DNA of 64,000 bases, from assembly GCF_017798205.1 (NCBI RefSeq), contig NZ_CP060010.1:2728001-2792000 (forward strand). Reading direction: 5' to 3'. The first letter of the stretch is position 1, and each line of letters opens with the position of its first letter. Below, piece after piece: positions 8,040 through 15,017 of the stretch. The notes under the pieces were generated by a model. The model saw only the letters and a program-made list of their open reading frames with translations. It ran no database searches and was not told the DNA's origin. This stretch comes from Cognatishimia activa. Lineage in GTDB: Bacteria; Pseudomonadota; Alphaproteobacteria; Rhodobacterales; Rhodobacteraceae. The position numbers and the translations under genes were made by a program.

Positions 8040-9209
8040 TTAAACGCGGGCCTTTGCAAAAGCCAAAAGCCGCACGATGGCGTCTTCGAGCCGGTCATCA
8101 TCGACCGTCAAAGCAATGCGCAGATGCCCCGCAGCCGCTTGGCCAAAGCTTTCCCCCGGCATAACGGCGATCAGCTCTTCGTCGAGCAATCCGCTGGCGA
8201 AGTCCTTGCCAGACATACCGGTCGCGCGAATATCCAGCATCACATACATCGCGCCCTGAGCAGGCACCAATTGCGCAACATTCTGGTTTTCAACAAGGTT
8301 TTGCACGATCCCGCGGCGGCGCAGGAAGGGTTCGGCCACGGCTTTTTCGACGCTATCGCCTTGGTTCAACGCAAATTGCGCGGCGTCCTGAACATAGCCA
8401 GTCACCCCATAGGTCGTATTGGTCACCAATTCCGTCAGTTCAGAAATCACCGCCTCAGGTGCCACAATCCAGCCGATGCGGCTGCCGGTCATGGCGTGGG
8501 ATTTGGACAGAGAGTTCACCACAATCGTGCGCTCTTCCATGCCGGGCAGGCTGCGCGGGCTGATATGGTCGCCGTCCCAGACTTGTGTTTCGTAGACTTC
8601 GTCCGAAATCAGCCAGAGGTCAAAATCCTGACAGGCTTTGGCGATGGCCGCGAGGGTCTCGGGGCTGTAGACCGCGCCGGTTGGGTTGTTGGGTGAGTTA
8701 ATCAACAACGACGTCGCGCCCTGAGCCTTGGCCGCGATATCCTCGTAGGTGGGCTGAAACCCATTCTCTGCGCGCGCTGGAACGGCCACAGGCTCGGCCC
8801 CGACAGCGCGCAAAGTGCGGGGGTAGGTGGCGTAGTAAGGGTCAATATGCAGCGCGCGGTCTCCGGGGTTTACGGCTGCAAAATGCGATGCAAACAAGCC
8901 CGATTGACCGCCGGGTACGATCAAAACGTTCTTTGACGTAGTGGGAACGCCGGTACGCGCCTCGACACGCTTCGCCACAGTTTCGCGCAACGCAGGTGTG
9001 CCGGGGATCGCGGCATAGCCGGTATGCCCGCCCAAAGCCGCCTCATGCATCGCCTCAAGGATCTCGCGCGACGTCCCGATGTCATGCTCGCCAATCGTCA
9101 GCATGGTCACTGGCTCTCCGGCCGCAATCATATCGCGTGCCTTCTCAAAGATCTCCCAGCCGTTGGAGCCACCACCGTTCAGAGTCGTAATGCGATTGGA
9201 AAGTTTCAT
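8040..9209 (-). CDS. Class I/II PLP-dependent aminotransferase
   Basis: 389-residue fold-type I aminotransferase of the aspartate aminotransferase superfamily (AAT_I). The PLP Schiff-base lysine is K237 in VNSLSKSHAMTGSRIGW; other cofactor residues are N175 in NSPNNPTG, D203 and Y206 in ISDEVYE, and R244. Substrate cannot be told from sequence. Same orientation as the mttB-family gene, with a 106-bp gap to the 29-codon ORF, so cotranscription is possible but not shown. The start MKLSNRITTL is in register with family N-termini. Confidence 0.9.
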   Translation of the reverse strand: MKLSNRITTLNGGGSNGWEIFEKARDMIAAGEPVTMLTIGEHDIGTSREILEAMHEAALGGHTGYAAIPGTPALRETVAKRVEARTGVPTTSKNVLIVPGGQSGLFASHFAAVNPGDRALHIDPYYATYPRTLRAVGAEPVAVPARAENGFQPTYEDIAAKAQGATSLLINSPNNPTGAVYSPETLAAIAKACQDFDLWLISDEVYETQVWDGDHISPRSLPGMEERTIVVNSLSKSHAMTGSRIGWIVAPEAVISELTELVTNTTYGVTGYVQDAAQFALNQGDSVEKAVAEPFLRRRGIVQNLVENQNVAQLVPAQGAMYVMLDIRATGMSGKDFASGLLDEELIAVMPGESFGQAAAGHLRIALTVDDDRLEDAIVRLLAFAKARV

Positions 9210-9285
9210 CTGAGCCCAGCCTTCTTCGGAATCAAACCTCTCGCCATGGGATCGAAATTTAACGAAAGGTCAACACATGGCGTGC

Positions 9286-9735
9286 TCAGTCCGGAGAATC
9301 CCCCATCAGATAACGCGGACCTGTGCCTTTGCGGCGGATGCCGTCGGCAGGGTTGTAAAGCGCGCAGGCCTTCATAGAGAGGCAGCCACACCCAATGCAG
9401 CCATCCAGCTTGTCACGCAGGGCTTCCATCTGGGCGATGCGTTGATCCAGATCGCGGCGAAACCGTTTCGAAATCCGCGCCCAATCGGCCTTTGAGGGCG
9501 TGCGCCCCTCGGGCAGGCCGCGCAAGACCTCTCGGATCTGCGCAATCGTGAATCCAAGGTTCTGGGCAATCATCACAAAGGACAAACGTCGAATATCCGA
9601 GCGATCAAACCTGCGCTGGCCCGCATCCGTGCGAAAGGGATGCACCAGCCCTTCCTCCTCGTAGTAGCGAATAGCCGAAGTCGCGAGCCCCGTGCGCTCG
9701 CCAATCTGACCAATTGTAAGTCCACGGTTTTTCAT
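9286..9735 (-). CDS. soxR: Redox-sensing MerR-family regulator SoxR
   Basis: MerR-family activator of about 149 residues with an N-terminal winged helix (LTIGQIGERTGLATSAIRYY), a dimerisation helix and the SoxR-specific [2Fe-2S] cluster ligands C113, C116, C118 and C124 (CIGCGCLSMKAC, C-x2-C-x-C-x5-C). Oxidation of the cluster, for example by redox-cycling compounds, switches on target promoters. ATG 9735 fits family N-termini, but TTG 9753, in the same frame, has a better ribosome-binding site (TAGGAA), so the protein may be 6 residues longer. It is divergent from a VOC gene, and a SoxR box lies in the shared region. Confidence 0.92.
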   Translation of the reverse strand: MKNRGLTIGQIGERTGLATSAIRYYEEEGLVHPFRTDAGQRRFDRSDIRRLSFVMIAQNLGFTIAQIREVLRGLPEGRTPSKADWARISKRFRRDLDQRIAQMEALRDKLDGCIGCGCLSMKACALYNPADGIRRKGTGPRYLMGDSPD

Positions 9736-9753
9736 CTTGCTGTAAATACTCAA
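9730..9753 (-). repeat. Dispersed Rhodobacterales-type intergenic repeat, copy 4 (TTGAGTATTT subtype)
   Basis: On the minus strand TTGAGTATTTACAGCAAGATGA, matching 20 of 24 positions of the copy at 47787-47810. It overlaps the soxR start region. Confidence 0.4.
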
Positions 9754-9764
9754 AAAATTTCCTA

Positions 9765-9795
9765 TTGCCTTAAAGTTTACTTGAGGAATTAGAGT
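9765..9795 (+). promoter_or_regulatory. SoxR box inside a promoter with 19-bp spacer, driving the VOC gene
   Basis: CCTTAAAGTTTACTTGAGG (9768-9786) closely resembles the E. coli soxS operator CCTCAAGTTAACTTGAGG but is one base longer between half-sites. It sits between TTGCCT (9765-9770, -35) and TAGAGT (9790-9795, -10), giving a 19-bp spacer, the overlong spacer typical of MerR-family targets. The direction fits the VOC gene; the box also lies just upstream of soxR. Confidence 0.75.
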
Positions 9796-9830
9796 GATTT
9801 CAACGATGATTCAGACAGAAAGGACATTTG

Positions 9831-10205
9831 ATGAAACTCGAACACGTCAACATCACGGTCAGCGACGCGAAGGCCTCGGCTGCAACCCTGATGGATATCT
9901 TTGACTGGCATATTCGTTGGGAAGGTGCCTCGATGGACGAAGGATACACAGTTCATGTTGGTGATCGCGAAAGTTATCTGGCTTTGTACAGCCCGGCAAA
10001 AGCGCTTGGACAGGCAAGCGAAAAATACACGGTCGAAGGCTCTATCAACCACGTTGGGGTGGTGGTGAATGATTTGAAGGCAGTGGAGGCCAAAGTTCTT
10101 GCCGCTGGGTTCAAACCCCATTCCCACTATGACTATGAACCGGGCGAGCGGTTCTATTTCAACGGACCCGACGGTGTTGAATATGAGGTCGTAAGCTACG
10201 CCTGA
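9831..10205 (+). CDS. VOC-superfamily (glyoxalase/bleomycin-resistance fold) protein
   Basis: 124-residue protein with two beta-alpha-beta-beta-beta modules of the vicinal oxygen chelate fold. Candidate metal ligands are H5 (LEHVNITV), H74 (INHVGVVV) and E119 (VEYEVV). Members are glyoxalases, dioxygenases, or resistance proteins that bind small molecules; the role here is not determinable, but control by SoxR suggests a part in handling redox-active compounds or their products. ATG 9831 follows AAAGGA; a TTG three bases earlier is less likely. The gene is followed by a GC-rich hairpin at 10217-10246. Confidence 0.85.
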   Translation: MKLEHVNITVSDAKASAATLMDIFDWHIRWEGASMDEGYTVHVGDRESYLALYSPAKALGQASEKYTVEGSINHVGVVVNDLKAVEAKVLAAGFKPHSHYDYEPGERFYFNGPDGVEYEVVSYA

Positions 10206-10216
10206 CACGGAAACGC

Positions 10217-10246
10217 GGGCGCGCATAACCGGTCTCTTGCGCGCCC
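10217..10246 (+). terminator. GC-rich hairpin after the VOC gene
   Basis: GGGCGCGC (10217-10224) and GCGCGCCC (10239-10246) form an 8-bp perfect stem 11 bases after the VOC stop. No T-run follows, so termination here would be inefficient or need another factor. Confidence 0.45.
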
Positions 10247-10314
10247 AAGTTGGTCACGCCCCGAATTACCCCTCAAGGCTTGACCCATTACGCGCGGCTG
10301 CTATGGTCGCGCGT

Positions 10315-10359
10315 ATGAAGACCCAAAGCATCATCATTATTTGCTGCATTACCTGCTAA
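10315..10359 (+). CDS. 14-aa Cys/Ile-rich leader peptide of cysS-cimA
   Basis: ATG 10315 to TAA 10357-10359 encodes MKTQSIIIICCITC: three Cys codons, two adjacent and one the last before the stop, and five Ile codons in 14. It ends 83 bases before cysS, the cysteinyl-tRNA synthetase gene, and cimA (isoleucine pathway) follows cysS. The immediately following RNA can fold onto the cysS ribosome-binding site (see 10361-10442). This is the expected layout of an amino-acid-sensing leader, in which a ribosome short of Cys-tRNA, or possibly Ile-tRNA, stalls and changes downstream folding. No classical ribosome-binding site is obvious. Function is inferred. Confidence 0.6.
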   Translation: MKTQSIIIICCITC

Positions 10360-10360
10360 C

Positions 10361-10442
10361 AGTGTTGGCGGGCCGTTCTTCTATTTCAAACCATTGATAA
10401 AGTTGATAAGCCCGCCACGCGAAAGACGTGTGTGAGGACACT
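10361..10442 (+). promoter_or_regulatory. Candidate attenuator structure before cysS
   Basis: AGTGT (10361-10365) followed by TGGCGGGC (10366-10373) can pair with GCCCGCCA (10410-10417) and, after an internal hairpin CACG/CGTG (10416-10430), with ACACT (10438-10442) directly before the cysS ATG. The fold would enclose the ribosome-binding sequence GAGGA (10434-10438). A ribosome paused at the last Cys codon (10354-10356) would cover AGTGTTGGC and free the start. No T-run is seen, so control would be translational. Confidence 0.5.
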
Positions 10443-11840
10443 ATGACCGAGATCAAGCTCTATAACTCTAAGACCCGCAAGAAAGAGGTCTTTGAGCCGA
10501 TTATTCAGGATCGGGTGAGCATCTATGTCTGTGGGCCCACCGTCTATGACCGCGCTCATCTGGGCAATGCGCGTCCCGTGGTGGTGTTTGATATTCTGAA
10601 CCGCCTGATGAACCACGTCTATGGCGACGAAAACGTCACCTATGTGCGCAATTTCACGGACGTGGACGATAAGATCAACGCGACGGCCTTGTCCCGCAAA
10701 GAGGCGGGCGCTGAAGGCACGTTGGAAGAGCTGATCGCCGAGCGCACAGAGGAAACCATTGGCTGGTATCTGGGCGATATGGCAGCCCTTGGGGCGCTCG
10801 AGCCCGATCACATGCCGCGCGCGACGCAATATATCGCGCAGATGATCGAGATGATCGAGAAACTGATCGCGGATGGCTATGCCTATGCCAAGGACGGGCA
10901 TGCTCTGTTTCGGGTGCGGGAGTTTGAAAATTACGGCAAGCTCTCGGGCCGCTCGGTGGATGATATGATCGCAGGCGCGCGCGTGGAAGTCGCGCCGTAT
11001 AAAGAAGACCCGATGGATTTCGTTTTGTGGAAGCCGTCTAGCGATGATCTGCCGGGCTGGGACAGCCCGTGGGGGCGGGGACGTCCGGGCTGGCATATCG
11101 AATGTTCGGCGATGTCCTATGAAATTCTGGGCGACAGTTTTGATATTCACGGCGGCGGCAATGACCTGCAGTTCCCGCATCATGAAAACGAGGTCGCCCA
11201 AAGCTGCTGCGCCCATCCCGAAGGCGAATTCGCGCGGGTCTGGATGCACAATGAAATGCTGCAGGTCGAAGGCAAAAAGATGTCCAAGTCCTTGGGCAAC
11301 TTCTTTACCGTGCGCGATCTGCTGGAACAGGGCGTGCCGGGGGAGGTTATCCGGTTTGTCTTCCTGAGCACGCATTATCGCAAGCCGATGGATTGGACGG
11401 CGAAGAAGGCCGAAGAAGCTGCGAATACCCTGCGCAAGTGGCGTGGGCTGACCGCAGGCATCGAGCCTGCCGCCAGCCCGTCCCCAGCGGTTTTGGCCGC
11501 TGTTGCGGATGATTTGAACACGGCGGGTGCTTTGGCTGAGATGCACAAGCTGGCGAATGCTGGGGACGCGGCGGGATTGCTGGCCTCGGGGCTGATGCTG
11601 GGTCTGTTGGGGGACAATCTGGGCGATTGGGCACAGGGGCCCGACGTGGATCTATCGGCTTTTGAAACGCAGCTGTTTGAGGCACGGGTGCAGGCGATGG
11701 AGAGTAAAGATTTCTCGGAAGTGGACCGCTTGAAATCTGCATTCGTGGACGCGGGTCTTGAGGTGCGCATGAGTAAAACAGGTGTTGAACTTGTCCCAGG
11801 TGCGGGTTTTGACGCAAAGAAACTGGAGGCCCTGCTATGA
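10443..11840 (+). CDS. cysS: Cysteinyl-tRNA synthetase
   Basis: Class I aminoacyl-tRNA synthetase, 465 residues, charging tRNA-Cys in the cytoplasm. Zinc/cysteine-binding site: C30 in CGPTVYD, Cys in WHIECSAM, and the His pair in [16 protein letters not shown]-binding motifs: HLGN at 39-42 (HIGH-like) and KMSKS at 279-283. An ATG at 10443 preceded by GAGGA is the family start ([10 protein letters not shown]); the upstream in-frame GTG is not needed. A Cys-rich 14-codon leader lies upstream. cimA follows after 127 bases containing a long GC-rich hairpin. Confidence 0.97.
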
Positions 11841-11856
11841 ACAGTAAAAAACAGCA

Positions 11857-11924
11857 GGTTCGCGCCCGGCCCGAGGGCAGGGGGCATTTCGCCCCCGCCC
11901 TGGGGGGCGGGTCGGGGGCGAACC
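11857..11924 (+). repeat. Long GC-rich imperfect hairpin between cysS and cimA
   Basis: The outer arms GGTTCGC...CC (11857-11867) and GGGGCGAACC (11915-11924) are complementary, and an inner stem GGGC-A-GGGGGC (11875-11885) pairs with GCCCCC-G-CCC (11891-11900). There is no T-run. It may be a REP-like intergenic element, an RNA-stability hairpin or a processing site. Confidence 0.5.
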
Positions 11925-11967
11925 GGGCCGCAAGCGACCCGGGGTGTAGTGGCTCGGAGGTTGTGTT

Positions 11968-13590
11968 ATGACCAAAGAACGTCTCTACCTCTACGACACC
12001 ACGCTTAGGGATGGTCAGCAAACCCAGGGCGTGCAGTTCTCGACCGACGAGAAAAAGCAGATCGCTTTGGCGCTTGATGAGCTGGGTGTGGACTTTATCG
12101 AAGGCGGCTGGCCGGGCGCAAACCCGACCGACAGCGCTTTTTTTGACGAACGGCCCGAGACGCGGGCGACCTTCACAGCCTTTGGCATGACCAAACGGGC
12201 GGGGATCTCGGCCGAAAACGACGACGTCTTGGCCGCCGTGTTGAATGCAGGCACGCCGTCGGTCTGTTTGGTCGGCAAAAGCCATGATTTTCACGTCGAA
12301 AAGGCCCTTGGGATCACATTGGCGGAAAACACAGAAAACATCGCGAAATCCATGGCGCATATCGTGGCGCAGGGGCGCGAAGCAATGTTTGACGCAGAGC
12401 ATTTCTTTGACGGCTATAAATCCAACCCGGACTACGCAATCGAGGCCGTGAAAGCCGCCTATGAGGCCGGCGCGCGTTGGGTTGTGCTCTGCGACACAAA
12501 TGGCGGCGCAATGCCTGCCGAAGTGCATGCGGCGACCAAGGCGGTGATCGAAGCGGGCATCCCGGGAACCCATCTGGGCATCCATACGCATAATGACTGC
12601 GAACAGGCGATCGCGAATTCTCTTGCAGCCATCGACGCGGGCGCGCGGCAGGTGCAAGGCACGCTGAATGGCCTTGGTGAACGCTGTGGCAACGCCAATC
12701 TGACCACGCTCATCCCTGTGCTGATGCTGAAAGAGCCCTATGCCTCGCTTTATGACACGCAGGTCACCAAGGAAGGCCTGAAAGGACTGACGCGGGTCAG
12801 CCGGATGCTGGATGACATCCTGAACCGCATCCCAGAAAAACAAGCGGCTTTTGTGGGGGCCTCGGCCTTTGCCCATAAGGCAGGTCTGCACGCCTCAGCC
12901 ATTCTCAAAGACCCCACGACCTATGAACATGTCGACCCGCAATCGGTCGGCAACGAGCGCATCATCCCGATGTCCAATCAGGCCGGTCAGTCCAATCTGA
13001 TCAAGCGATTGGCGGACGCTGGGATCTCGGTTGAAAAAGGCGATCCGGCTTTGGCGCGGATCCTCAATCGCATCAAAGAAAAAGAAGCGCAGGGCTATAG
13101 TTTTGACACTGCGCAGGCGAGCTTTGAGCTGCTGGCGCGCGAAAAACTTGGCAGCCTGCCGACATTCTTTGAGGTCAAACGCTACAAGGTCACGGTCGAG
13201 CGCCGCAAAAACAAATATAATCAGATGGTCAGCCTGTCTGAGGCGGTTGTGGTCGTGAAAATCGGCGGCGAAAAGAAGCTCTCTGTCAGTGAATCCATGG
13301 ACGAGGGCGGCTCGGATCGGGGGCCGGTCAACGCGCTGTCCAAGGCTTTGGGCAAGGATCTTGGCCCTTATCAGGCCGTGATTGATGATCTGAAACTCGT
13401 GGACTTTAAGGTGCGCATCACACAAGGCGGCACAGAGGCCGTCACGCGCGTCATCATTGACAGCGAAGACAGCAACGGTCGGCGTTGGTCTACGGTTGGC
13501 GTGTCCCCAAACATAGTGGATGCCTCCTTTGAAGCGCTCTTGGATGCGATCAACTGGAAGCTTGTCCACGACGGCGCGACGGCGGTGTGA
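11968..13590 (+). CDS. cimA: (R)-citramalate synthase
   Basis: Condenses pyruvate and acetyl-CoA to (R)-citramalate, the first step of the threonine-independent route to isoleucine. 540 residues: an isopropylmalate-synthase-like TIM barrel with DTTLRDGQQTQGV at 10-22, GIHTHNDCEQA (metal-binding His pair) and GTLNGLGERCGNANL, then a C-terminal LeuA-type regulatory domain that in the family binds the feedback inhibitor isoleucine. Length and the FIEGGWPGANPTD block favour CimA over LeuA or homocitrate synthase. Start ATG 11968 follows GGAGG. Its stop overlaps the GTG start of the next gene, so the two are translationally coupled. Confidence 0.92.
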   Translation: MTKERLYLYDTTLRDGQQTQGVQFSTDEKKQIALALDELGVDFIEGGWPGANPTDSAFFDERPETRATFTAFGMTKRAGISAENDDVLAAVLNAGTPSVCLVGKSHDFHVEKALGITLAENTENIAKSMAHIVAQGREAMFDAEHFFDGYKSNPDYAIEAVKAAYEAGARWVVLCDTNGGAMPAEVHAATKAVIEAGIPGTHLGIHTHNDCEQAIANSLAAIDAGARQVQGTLNGLGERCGNANLTTLIPVLMLKEPYASLYDTQVTKEGLKGLTRVSRMLDDILNRIPEKQAAFVGASAFAHKAGLHASAILKDPTTYEHVDPQSVGNERIIPMSNQAGQSNLIKRLADAGISVEKGDPALARILNRIKEKEAQGYSFDTAQASFELLAREKLGSLPTFFEVKRYKVTVERRKNKYNQMVSLSEAVVVVKIGGEKKLSVSESMDEGGSDRGPVNALSKALGKDLGPYQAVIDDLKLVDFKVRITQGGTEAVTRVIIDSEDSNGRRWSTVGVSPNIVDASFEALLDAINWKLVHDGATAV

Positions 13591-14360
13591 GTGATCTGAC
13601 GGCGGATATTAACGCCTGCGCCGGTCTGGTGCAGCGGGGCGATGCGGATCGCTTTATGGCGATCATGGCCGCGCCTGTGACCGCGCGGGCCAAGTTGTTT
13701 CCGCTCTTTGCCTTCAACATCGAAGTCAGCCGCGCGCCTTGGGTGACGCAGGAAAGCATGATTGCCGAGATGCGCCTGCAATGGTGGCGCGATGCGTTGG
13801 AAGAAATCCGAGAGGGCGGGCAGGCGCGGCGGCATGAGGTGGTGACCCCCTTGGCGGCGGTTTTGACGCCTGAGATGGCCGACAGTCTGGACGCTTTGGT
13901 CGAGGCGCGACGGTGGGATATCTATAAAGATCCGTTTGAGGACGAGGCAGCGTTTCGCGCATATCTGGATAAGACCACGGGCAATCTGCTTTTGGCGGGA
14001 TGTCAGATGCTTGGCGACGCTGATGAGTCTGCCGTGCGTGACATCGCCTTTGCCCATGCTCTGGTGCGCTGGTTTCAAGCCATTCCTGAATTGGAGAACC
14101 AAGGACGGCGTCCCTTGGTGGATGGGCGTGTAGAAGCAGTACAGGCACTGGCGCAAGAGGCTTTGGCGCGTCGACGGGCTGCAGATGCGTCGAAAAACAG
14201 CAAAACAGCGCGGGCGGCGCTCTATTGCACGTGGCAGGACGCGGCACTGCTTAAGCAAGTGACCCAAGATCCGATGCTCGTGGCCGATGGTGCGCTTGGG
14301 CTTAGTGAATTTCGTAGGAAATCCAGCCTCTTGGTGGTGTCGACCTTCAACCGCCTATGA
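13587..14360 (+). CDS. Squalene/phytoene synthase-family protein
   Basis: 257-residue trans-isoprenyl diphosphate synthase fold (COG1562 type). It starts at a GTG overlapping the cimA stop (GTGA). Family blocks: LFAFNIEVSRAPW, MIAEMRLQWWRDALEEI, RWDIYKDPFEDEAAFRAYLDKTTGNLL. The usual Asp-rich magnesium motifs of active squalene or phytoene synthases are not clearly kept; the WWRDALEEI block resembles the divergent branch related to NDUFAF6, linked in mitochondria to complex I assembly. A true carotenoid or hopanoid role is therefore uncertain. The 3' end overlaps the converging WYL regulator by 6 bases. Confidence 0.75.
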   Translation: MSDLTADINACAGLVQRGDADRFMAIMAAPVTARAKLFPLFAFNIEVSRAPWVTQESMIAEMRLQWWRDALEEIREGGQARRHEVVTPLAAVLTPEMADSLDALVEARRWDIYKDPFEDEAAFRAYLDKTTGNLLLAGCQMLGDADESAVRDIAFAHALVRWFQAIPELENQGRRPLVDGRVEAVQALAQEALARRRAADASKNSKTARAALYCTWQDAALLKQVTQDPMLVADGALGLSEFRRKSSLLVVSTFNRL

Positions 14361-15017
14361 CGCTCGGCGATCCAGATCCGCGAGGGTCTTGCCCGGTTCA
14401 TCTACAAAAAGCCCCGGCAGAATGCGCACGGTCTCGATCTGATCGACCCGAAAGGTACCAAAGTCGCTGAGGTCTTCGACCCATGCGGTGAGGCTCCAGA
14501 CGCGGCCCCAATAATCCAGTTTCAAAGGCCTAAGATCATGCGCTGCGCCAGACACCGTGGCGATGGCAATCCGTTGTTTGGCCCGGATCGCGCCGCGCAA
14601 ATTGGTGAGGTGCTGGAAGGCATAGGCTGATTCCGCAAAGGGGTAGGCCGCGAAATTCATCGCCTTGGGCGCGGCGCGATGGTCCTCTGGCAGAACCGCA
14701 TCAATCTTTTCGGCCAAAGAGATAGCTGCCGTGCGCAAAGCCTCATCCGATGACTGACCCGCAGCGGCCAATGTGACCAAGAGCACATCCAGTTCTTCTT
14801 CCGTCAGGTTCAACGGGGGCAGGGTGATCGCCGCCCGCGCGGAGTAGCCCCGACCGCGTTCGCCCTCGACCGGAATGCCGCTGGCTGCGAGCATGTCCAT
14901 ATCGCGATACATCGTGCGCAAAGACACCCCAAACCGCTCTGCCAAATCCTCGGCGCGGTGCAGCTCTCCGTCCTTGAGAATCTCTATCAGCGAATAGAGC
15001 CGTTCGGTCCGTTTCAT
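14355..15017 (-). CDS. YafY-type WYL-domain transcriptional regulator
   Basis: 220 residues: an N-terminal helix-turn-helix of the DeoR/HTH_11 type (RAEDLAERFGVSLRTMYRDMDMLAASGIPV, about 16-50) and a C-terminal WYL ligand-binding domain (about 130-205) with RPLKLDYWGRVWSLTAWVEDLSDFGTFRVDQI. WYL proteins respond to nucleic acids or small ligands; the ligand here is unknown. Repeated TGACA elements lie just upstream at 15050-15085 and may be its own operator. It is divergent from tatA, with about 200 bases between starts. Confidence 0.88.
   Translation of the reverse strand: MKRTERLYSLIEILKDGELHRAEDLAERFGVSLRTMYRDMDMLAASGIPVEGERGRGYSARAAITLPPLNLTEEELDVLLVTLAAAGQSSDEALRTAAISLAEKIDAVLPEDHRAAPKAMNFAAYPFAESAYAFQHLTNLRGAIRAKQRIAIATVSGAAHDLRPLKLDYWGRVWSLTAWVEDLSDFGTFRVDQIETVRILPGLFVDEPGKTLADLDRRAS

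Follow-up and report, generated by a model that had tools for sequence, protein, structure and literature searches.

The locus raises the question of why a short reading frame in front of a cysteine--tRNA ligase gene should be rich in isoleucine as well as cysteine codons. In the window, the whole 64,000-nt stretch of Cognatishimia activa DNA that was analyzed, ORF translation and conservation identified a leader upstream open reading frame (uORF) encoding MKTQSIIIICCITC on the forward strand at 10315 to 10359, which is probably translated from a leaderless RNA. The uORF runs for 14 codons from an ATG at 10315 to a TAA stop at 10357-10359. The three Cys and five Ile codons of MKTQSIIIICCITC, with Cys as the final sense codon, were confirmed in the window sequence, as the original prediction had stated. 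Downstream on the same strand lie cysS, for cysteine--tRNA ligase (10443 to 11840; NCBIfam TIGR00435, 418 bits against a cut-off of 340), the ATG of which (10443) is 83 nt from the leader stop, and cimA, for citramalate synthase, the entry to isoleucine synthesis (11968 to 13590; NCBIfam TIGR00977, 592 bits against a cut-off of 450). The regulatory codons match the operon products, Cys with cysS and Ile with cimA.

The distribution of this leader was surveyed at 219 cysS loci, one per genome and mostly one per genus, within the GTDB family of the window. Here, a uORF was called a dual leader if it contained one or more Cys and two or more Ile codons and ended 35-165 nt before cysS, and a strong leader if it reached two Cys and three Ile codons; one of the 219 loci had too little upstream sequence to be scored. 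Among Rhodobacteraceae loci, 174 of the 196 in which cimA adjoins cysS, the two starts being no more than 2053 nt apart, have a dual leader. It is absent from all 12 in which these genes are clearly not adjacent and present at all 10 in which contig ends preclude a judgment of linkage. Comparison of 174/196 with 0/12 gave a Fisher p of 5.5e-11, a value that ignores relatedness. Given that a Cys and Ile uORF was found in 49 of 2180 dinucleotide-shuffled upstream regions, and that the strong form occurs at 142 of the 196 linked loci but in none of the 2180 shuffles, the uORF is not a product of chance. The leader ORF is real and conserved. Conservation across relatives was the check named in the original prediction, and the claim of a Cys/Ile leader ahead of cysS-cimA is strengthened by it. 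Against the dual-attenuator reading, 22 of the 196 linked loci are without a dual leader, although three of these still hold a Cys- or Ile-rich uORF in that place (MDARATLFCCRIV, MTRLTITLCCCMCR and MNAPNRIIGIIIGG).

Several features of the sample bear on the strength of this association. Six of the 10 loci at which linkage could not be assigned lie in fragmented genomes (G128, G140, G175, G196, G209 and G307), in which cimA was not found at E 1e-90. In five of these six, all except G128, no more than 210 nt separates the cysS match from the contig break, and the missing sequence may contain cimA. In G128 (L182), the 658 nt between cysS and the contig end is a tandem repeat with no cimA, and a dual leader stands in front of cysS; this locus is a possible exception to the linkage rule. 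If all six lacked cimA, the split would be 174/196 versus 6/18 (p 4e-7). On the CysS tree, linkage changes 10 times, and in a tree-aware test the leader tracked linkage in 5.3 of 6 supported independent pairs and never did the reverse (median sign-test p 0.0625), which is consistent with the association but not decisive alone. A pattern scan of one genome per species (84,980 species) placed 114 matches before cysS among the 120 matches listed; of the others listed, four lie before cysS by eye at fragment ends and two are unrelated sequence. Outside the family, 16 of the 24 genomes that represent the rest of the class were inspected by eye (L034 and L036-L050, of which L047 has almost no upstream sequence), and none showed such a leader.

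The 12 unlinked loci exclude two second cysS copies, L214 (G111) and L241 (G086), which have neither a dual leader nor an adjacent cimA. Also uncounted were L031-L033 and L035 (replaced by the longer L242-L245), the duplicates L172, L173 and L185, the fragment L215, the partial locus of G199 (L253) and L019, which has no upstream sequence. No usable cysS match was obtained for G174, G321, G396, G098, G240 and G027.

Loss or movement of cimA provides a series of natural experiments. Of the 12 non-adjacent loci, nine belong to genomes without cimA, G075 and G101 carry cimA elsewhere, and in G185 (L229) it lies 1.8 kb further on; in seven of the 12, the next gene after cysS is a relative (34-54% identity) of the one that comes after cimA in the window. 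The genus g124 is represented by three species (G131, G430 and G429), which lack cimA and in which the gene that follows cimA in the window directly follows cysS (by comparison in G131, by eye in G430 and G429). Their leaders, in the same place, read MDWICCLCRA, MDWICCLCRA and MEWICCPC, respectively, each with three Cys codons and one Ile codon. Conversely, cimA is linked where the leader is Cys-poor (MNAPNRIIGIIIGG and MDAPNRLIGIIICG; G022 and G393, with Ile-rich leaders that contain no or one Cys). Weak remnants of a leader are present in G358 (MTKQPASAQSFCSRR) and, by eye, in G075 (MIWRC). No Cys/Ile uORF was seen before cimA where this gene is not next to cysS (G101, G075 and G185), and in G240, for which no cysS was found, cimA is preceded by an open frame with no Cys/Ile uORF. 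The cysS of G101 (L213 and L246) is only 42% identical to that of the window and lies on another contig; its usual cimA remains, without a leader, beside a gene that we take to be MmcQ/YjbR-like.

Codon statistics were compiled for 137 of the 140 leaders found in the first 154 loci, L118 (the leader of G131), L139 and L149 being dropped as doubtful. Ile is the commonest residue of these 137 leaders (30.4%), followed by Cys at 22.3%, with Leu at 2.1% and Val at 0.5%; Val and Leu seldom replace Ile, and the peptide is variable outside its Cys and Ile positions. The 527 Ile codons comprise 310 ATT, 215 ATC and 2 ATA. Counted back from the stop, codon -5 is Cys in 102 of the 137 leaders and codon -4 is Cys in 91, and codon -3 is ATT in 120 of its 128 occurrences of Ile. 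The near-fixed ATT at this last position hints at a constraint at the nucleotide level as well. Of 184 leaders, 173 have both Cys and Ile among codons -5 to -3, 10 have only Ile and one only Cys, these leaders having been chosen by Cys/Ile content and not by position. The final codon, proposed originally as the site of the stall, does not behave as a conserved sensor: just 71 of 137 leaders have Cys there and the others mostly CGC or GGC, as would be expected if the codon were held by a hairpin that needs CCNGC.

The cysteine part of this element has been described. In the excerpts available of Brewer et al. (2021, RNA Biol; PMC8632094), the motif uORFC-8-2 comprises 145 examples, all upstream of cysS in Rhodobacterales, with an AUG-started uORF that has two tandem Cys codons, usually at positions 14-15. 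Two stems are described there, the first holding the Cys codons, together with a proposed intrinsic terminator with a U run, and the motif is read as a cysteine attenuator of cysS. Judged against those excerpts, the window leader is a uORFC-8-2 element: it lies upstream of cysS in a member of the Rhodobacterales and has tandem Cys codons (TGC TGC). These are codons 10-11 here and 14-15 in the excerpts, so the counts or the choice of start differ. A terminator-like hairpin is present and co-evolving, with only a moderate U tract, and the Cys-codon region showed no co-evolution with the G-rich arm that follows the uORF, a comparison separate from the stem model of the paper. The excerpted description of uORFC-8-2 is confined to cysteine; it says nothing of Ile codons, of linkage to cimA, of leaderless geometry or of any promoter further downstream. 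No other open-licence paper was found under the motif name, nor any that contained both “citramalate synthase” and “cysteinyl-tRNA synthetase.” Within the open-licence literature searched, what seems to be added here to an already published cysteine element is its isoleucine/cimA side, its probably leaderless start and the promoter downstream of it. A scan of window positions 9000-14500 against Rfam 15 gave no covariance-model match to the leader at E values up to 5.

Analysis of the region 5′ of the uORF revealed a candidate promoter, P1, on the forward strand (TTGACC-16-TATGGT, 10280 to 10307), which ends 7 nt before the leader ATG. A strict -35/-10 pair with a 6- or 7-nt gap precedes 121 of 184 leader ATGs, which were chosen without use of the promoter score, compared with 25 of 4886 among the remaining ATGs up to 600 nt from cysS starts. 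The base immediately 5′ of the leader ATG is C in 84% of 140 leaders, for which the ATG was partly chosen by promoter score. From a -10 box at 6-7 nt, transcription should start at or within one base of the A. Because the uORF begins 6-7 nt after a conserved -10 box, the leader transcript is probably leaderless, with its 5′ end at or within a base of the AUG. A second candidate promoter, P2, was located by motif score inside the leader on the same strand (TTTCAA-17-TAAGCC with an upstream TG as in an extended -10, 10384 to 10412) and may give basal cysS expression. The P2 motif (TTYCNA-16/17-TGnTAR, score 7-8 of 8) lies a short distance 5′ of cysS at 115 of the 184 loci that have a leader and at 13 of the 34 that do not, and occurs in 16 of 654 shuffles; the excess over shuffles arises partly by construction since the motif was written after inspection of the same loci.

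Between the uORF and P2, folding and co-evolution point to a terminator-like hairpin, T, on the forward strand at 10352 to 10372 (CCTGCTAAC-AGT-GTTGGCGGG, then CCGTTCTTCT), with a predicted energy in the window of -11.4 kcal/mol. Its 5′ arm consists of the last two uORF codons and the stop (CCNGC-UGA or -UAA), and its partner is the next G-rich segment. A GCGG arm is present at 170 of the 184 loci, and among these the lower five base pairs form at 146, 169, 137, 152 and 167. The arms of a locus pair better with each other than with swapped arms in 102 of 137 cases (p 8e-13), and three control pairings were null. The identity of the stop codon is reflected in the opposite arm: the 169 leaders that stop with UGA have UC there in 94 and UUR in 6, and the 12 that stop with UAA have UUR in seven and UC in none, five of these seven UAA/UUR loci belonging to one genus. 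One of the three UAG leaders has UUR, and 76 of the 184 leaders fit neither class. The predicted hairpin T is thus conserved and co-evolves with the end of the uORF. The tract after T begins after CCG and has T at 36-84% per position, being U-rich with no clean run; P2 overlaps this tract. The mean folding z of T was -1.86. The region from the stop to +84 was unremarkable (mean z -0.55), nor does the fold of the whole 161-nt stretch in the window stand out (z -1.61, equalled by 12 of 200 shuffles).

Taken as a whole, the comparative evidence indicates that the leader is probably a ribosome-mediated transcription attenuator of cysS-cimA that reads the charging of both tRNA-Cys and tRNA-Ile and contains a further promoter for basal expression. 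We also lean towards the view that a single leaderless uORF integrates two metabolically unrelated tRNA charges and controls both cysS and cimA, its codons changing when cimA leaves. The RNA from P1 would start at or within a base of the uORF AUG, as the promoter geometry implies. With both tRNAs charged, ribosomes would finish the uORF and leave, T would fold with GTTGGCGGG, and transcription would end. A stalled ribosome covers ∼13 nt past the start of the A-site codon, so the base of T would be out of reach during a stall at -5, -4 or -3. These codons (Cys Cys Ile in the window, 10342 to 10350 on the forward strand) form the proposed stall zone; a ribosome awaiting Cys-tRNA or Ile-tRNA there (Cys, Cys/Ile and Ile at -5, -4 and -3) would cover the T base, and polymerase would then continue into cysS-cimA. 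Only Ile at -4 or -3 fits this scheme directly, since T would stay uncovered by a ribosome that waits at the earlier Ile codons (-9 to -6), which may act through slowing or timing. The freed G-rich arm could pair downstream with GCCCGC, and P2 would supply basal expression of cysS. Pairing of the Cys-codon region, or of the early leader, with the G-rich arm was considered as an antiterminator and rejected, as no co-evolution was observed.

The published alternative is a cysteine-only attenuator of cysS, with Ile codons that are there incidentally or for the sake of RNA structure or codon timing. It matches the excerpted model for uORFC-8-2 (PMC8632094) and accommodates both the frequency of Cys at -5 and -4 beside an almost invariable ATT at -3 and the locus of G128, which may hold a leader without linked cimA. 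We regard it as unlikely, given that Ile is more frequent than Cys and stays encoded by ATC or ATT, with ATA or Val seldom in its place, that the cimA-less genus g124 is cut to one Ile with Cys kept, and that the dual leader is absent from the 12 loci with cimA clearly not next to cysS though cysS stays. Release of the ribosome from the same leader might instead expose the pyrimidine-rich stretch after T to Rho. The weak U tract and this pyrimidine-rich region are in keeping with such termination, and Rho is proposed for mycobacterial Cys leaders in the accessible part of PMC1262725, but a conserved and co-evolving hairpin T makes it a very improbable substitute for the intrinsic terminator. 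Action in trans, whether by a membrane or metal-binding micropeptide or by an attenuator RNA acting elsewhere, has a precedent in Sinorhizobium peTrpL, which according to the text available of PMC7298713 works in trans besides being an attenuator product. For the present leader it is extremely unlikely: exchanges of Ile for Val or Leu are rare, positions other than Cys and Ile vary, the peptide end is shaped by the hairpin, and occurrence tracks cysS-cimA linkage.

The original prediction favored translational control, with a foldback after the leader, AGTGT pairing with ACACT, hiding the cysS ribosome-binding site. Its core, GGCGGGC with GCCCGCC, does appear in the predicted fold of the window as stem L, with a 5′ arm at 10367 to 10373 and a 3′ arm at 10410 to 10416 (both on the forward strand), but the extension pairs GUGU with ACGC (10417-10420) and not with the ACACT by the cysS start. 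Stem L overlaps T, with which it shares 10367-10372, the 5′ arm of T lying inside the uORF end; its 3′ arm overlaps the end of the P2 -10 element. Covariation, proposed as a check on the stem, showed the arms of a locus to pair slightly better with each other than with those of other loci (82 of 137, p 0.003), weaker support than for T (82/137 versus 102/137), and revealed no conserved reach to the ribosome-binding site. When the post-leader segment was compared with the last 14 nt before cysS, a complement of at least 5 nt was found at 20 of 184 loci, as against 28 of 184 with a random partner. The Shine-Dalgarno sequence GAGGA (10434 to 10438, forward strand) is mostly open in the window (predicted P(unpaired) 0.78). 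Its pairing with the post-leader segment exceeds 0.3 at 31 of 184 loci and has a mean of 0.135. GCCCGC also occurs at some leader-less loci, where it fits a promoter discriminator. Occlusion through AGTGT/ACACT was rejected, its extension not exceeding random partners, and translational control by a post-leader stem is very improbable. The hairpin from the uORF end (10352-10372) is a better candidate for the switch than a fold that covers the ribosome-binding site. The initial observation at this locus is thus confirmed, and comparison supports its dual-codon reading but not its occlusion model.

Cys charging and Ile synthesis, the pair at the present locus, have no direct pathway in common, whereas for the threonine operon of Escherichia coli isoleucine derives from threonine. 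The leader of that operon, thrL, with Thr and Ile codons, is reportedly one leader that responds to two amino acids (Lynn et al. 1987, as cited in PMC7041290). In the portions available of PMC7298713 and PMC10117765, trpL of Sinorhizobium meliloti is leaderless, encodes a 14-aa peptide and gives an RNA that begins at the AUG. Like the present leader, for which promoter geometry fits an RNA start at the AUG, it is alphaproteobacterial; it differs in having Trp codons for one amino acid and in being shown experimentally, and no shared sequence is claimed. Cys-rich uORFs also precede cysA2 and cys operons in mycobacteria (PMC4633059 and PMC1262725, in part), with runs of Cys codons near the uORF end before sulfur-metabolism genes. 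They belong to another phylum and are described in those parts as Cys-rich only, and the part of PMC1262725 that was available reports no conserved terminator hairpin. If the dual-attenuator reading is correct, the published cysteine element becomes a two-amino-acid sensor that ties cysteine charging to isoleucine synthesis throughout a large bacterial family. The natural experiments, in which cimA and Ile codons are lost and Cys codons kept, would make codon specificity directly testable and would suggest that leader-peptide codons follow the genes under their control.

Some minor features of these loci were also observed. At six loci (L025, L052, L053, L060, L071 and L130), an extra GC-rich hairpin of the GGTCGG...CCGACC type was seen by eye between the uORF and the G-rich arm, and in five of the six the uORF has lost its TGC-like codon before the stop; these loci are possibly remodelled attenuators. 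The cysS-cimA spacer (11841-11967 in the window) is very G+C-rich and of variable length among relatives, and gave a sub-threshold match to 6C RNA on the minus strand (Rfam 15, E 4.7). By eye, a short CGCG-type hairpin often seems to lie just 5′ of the cysS Shine-Dalgarno sequence in relatives and in the window (10417-10433), near the predicted 5′ end of the P2 transcript.
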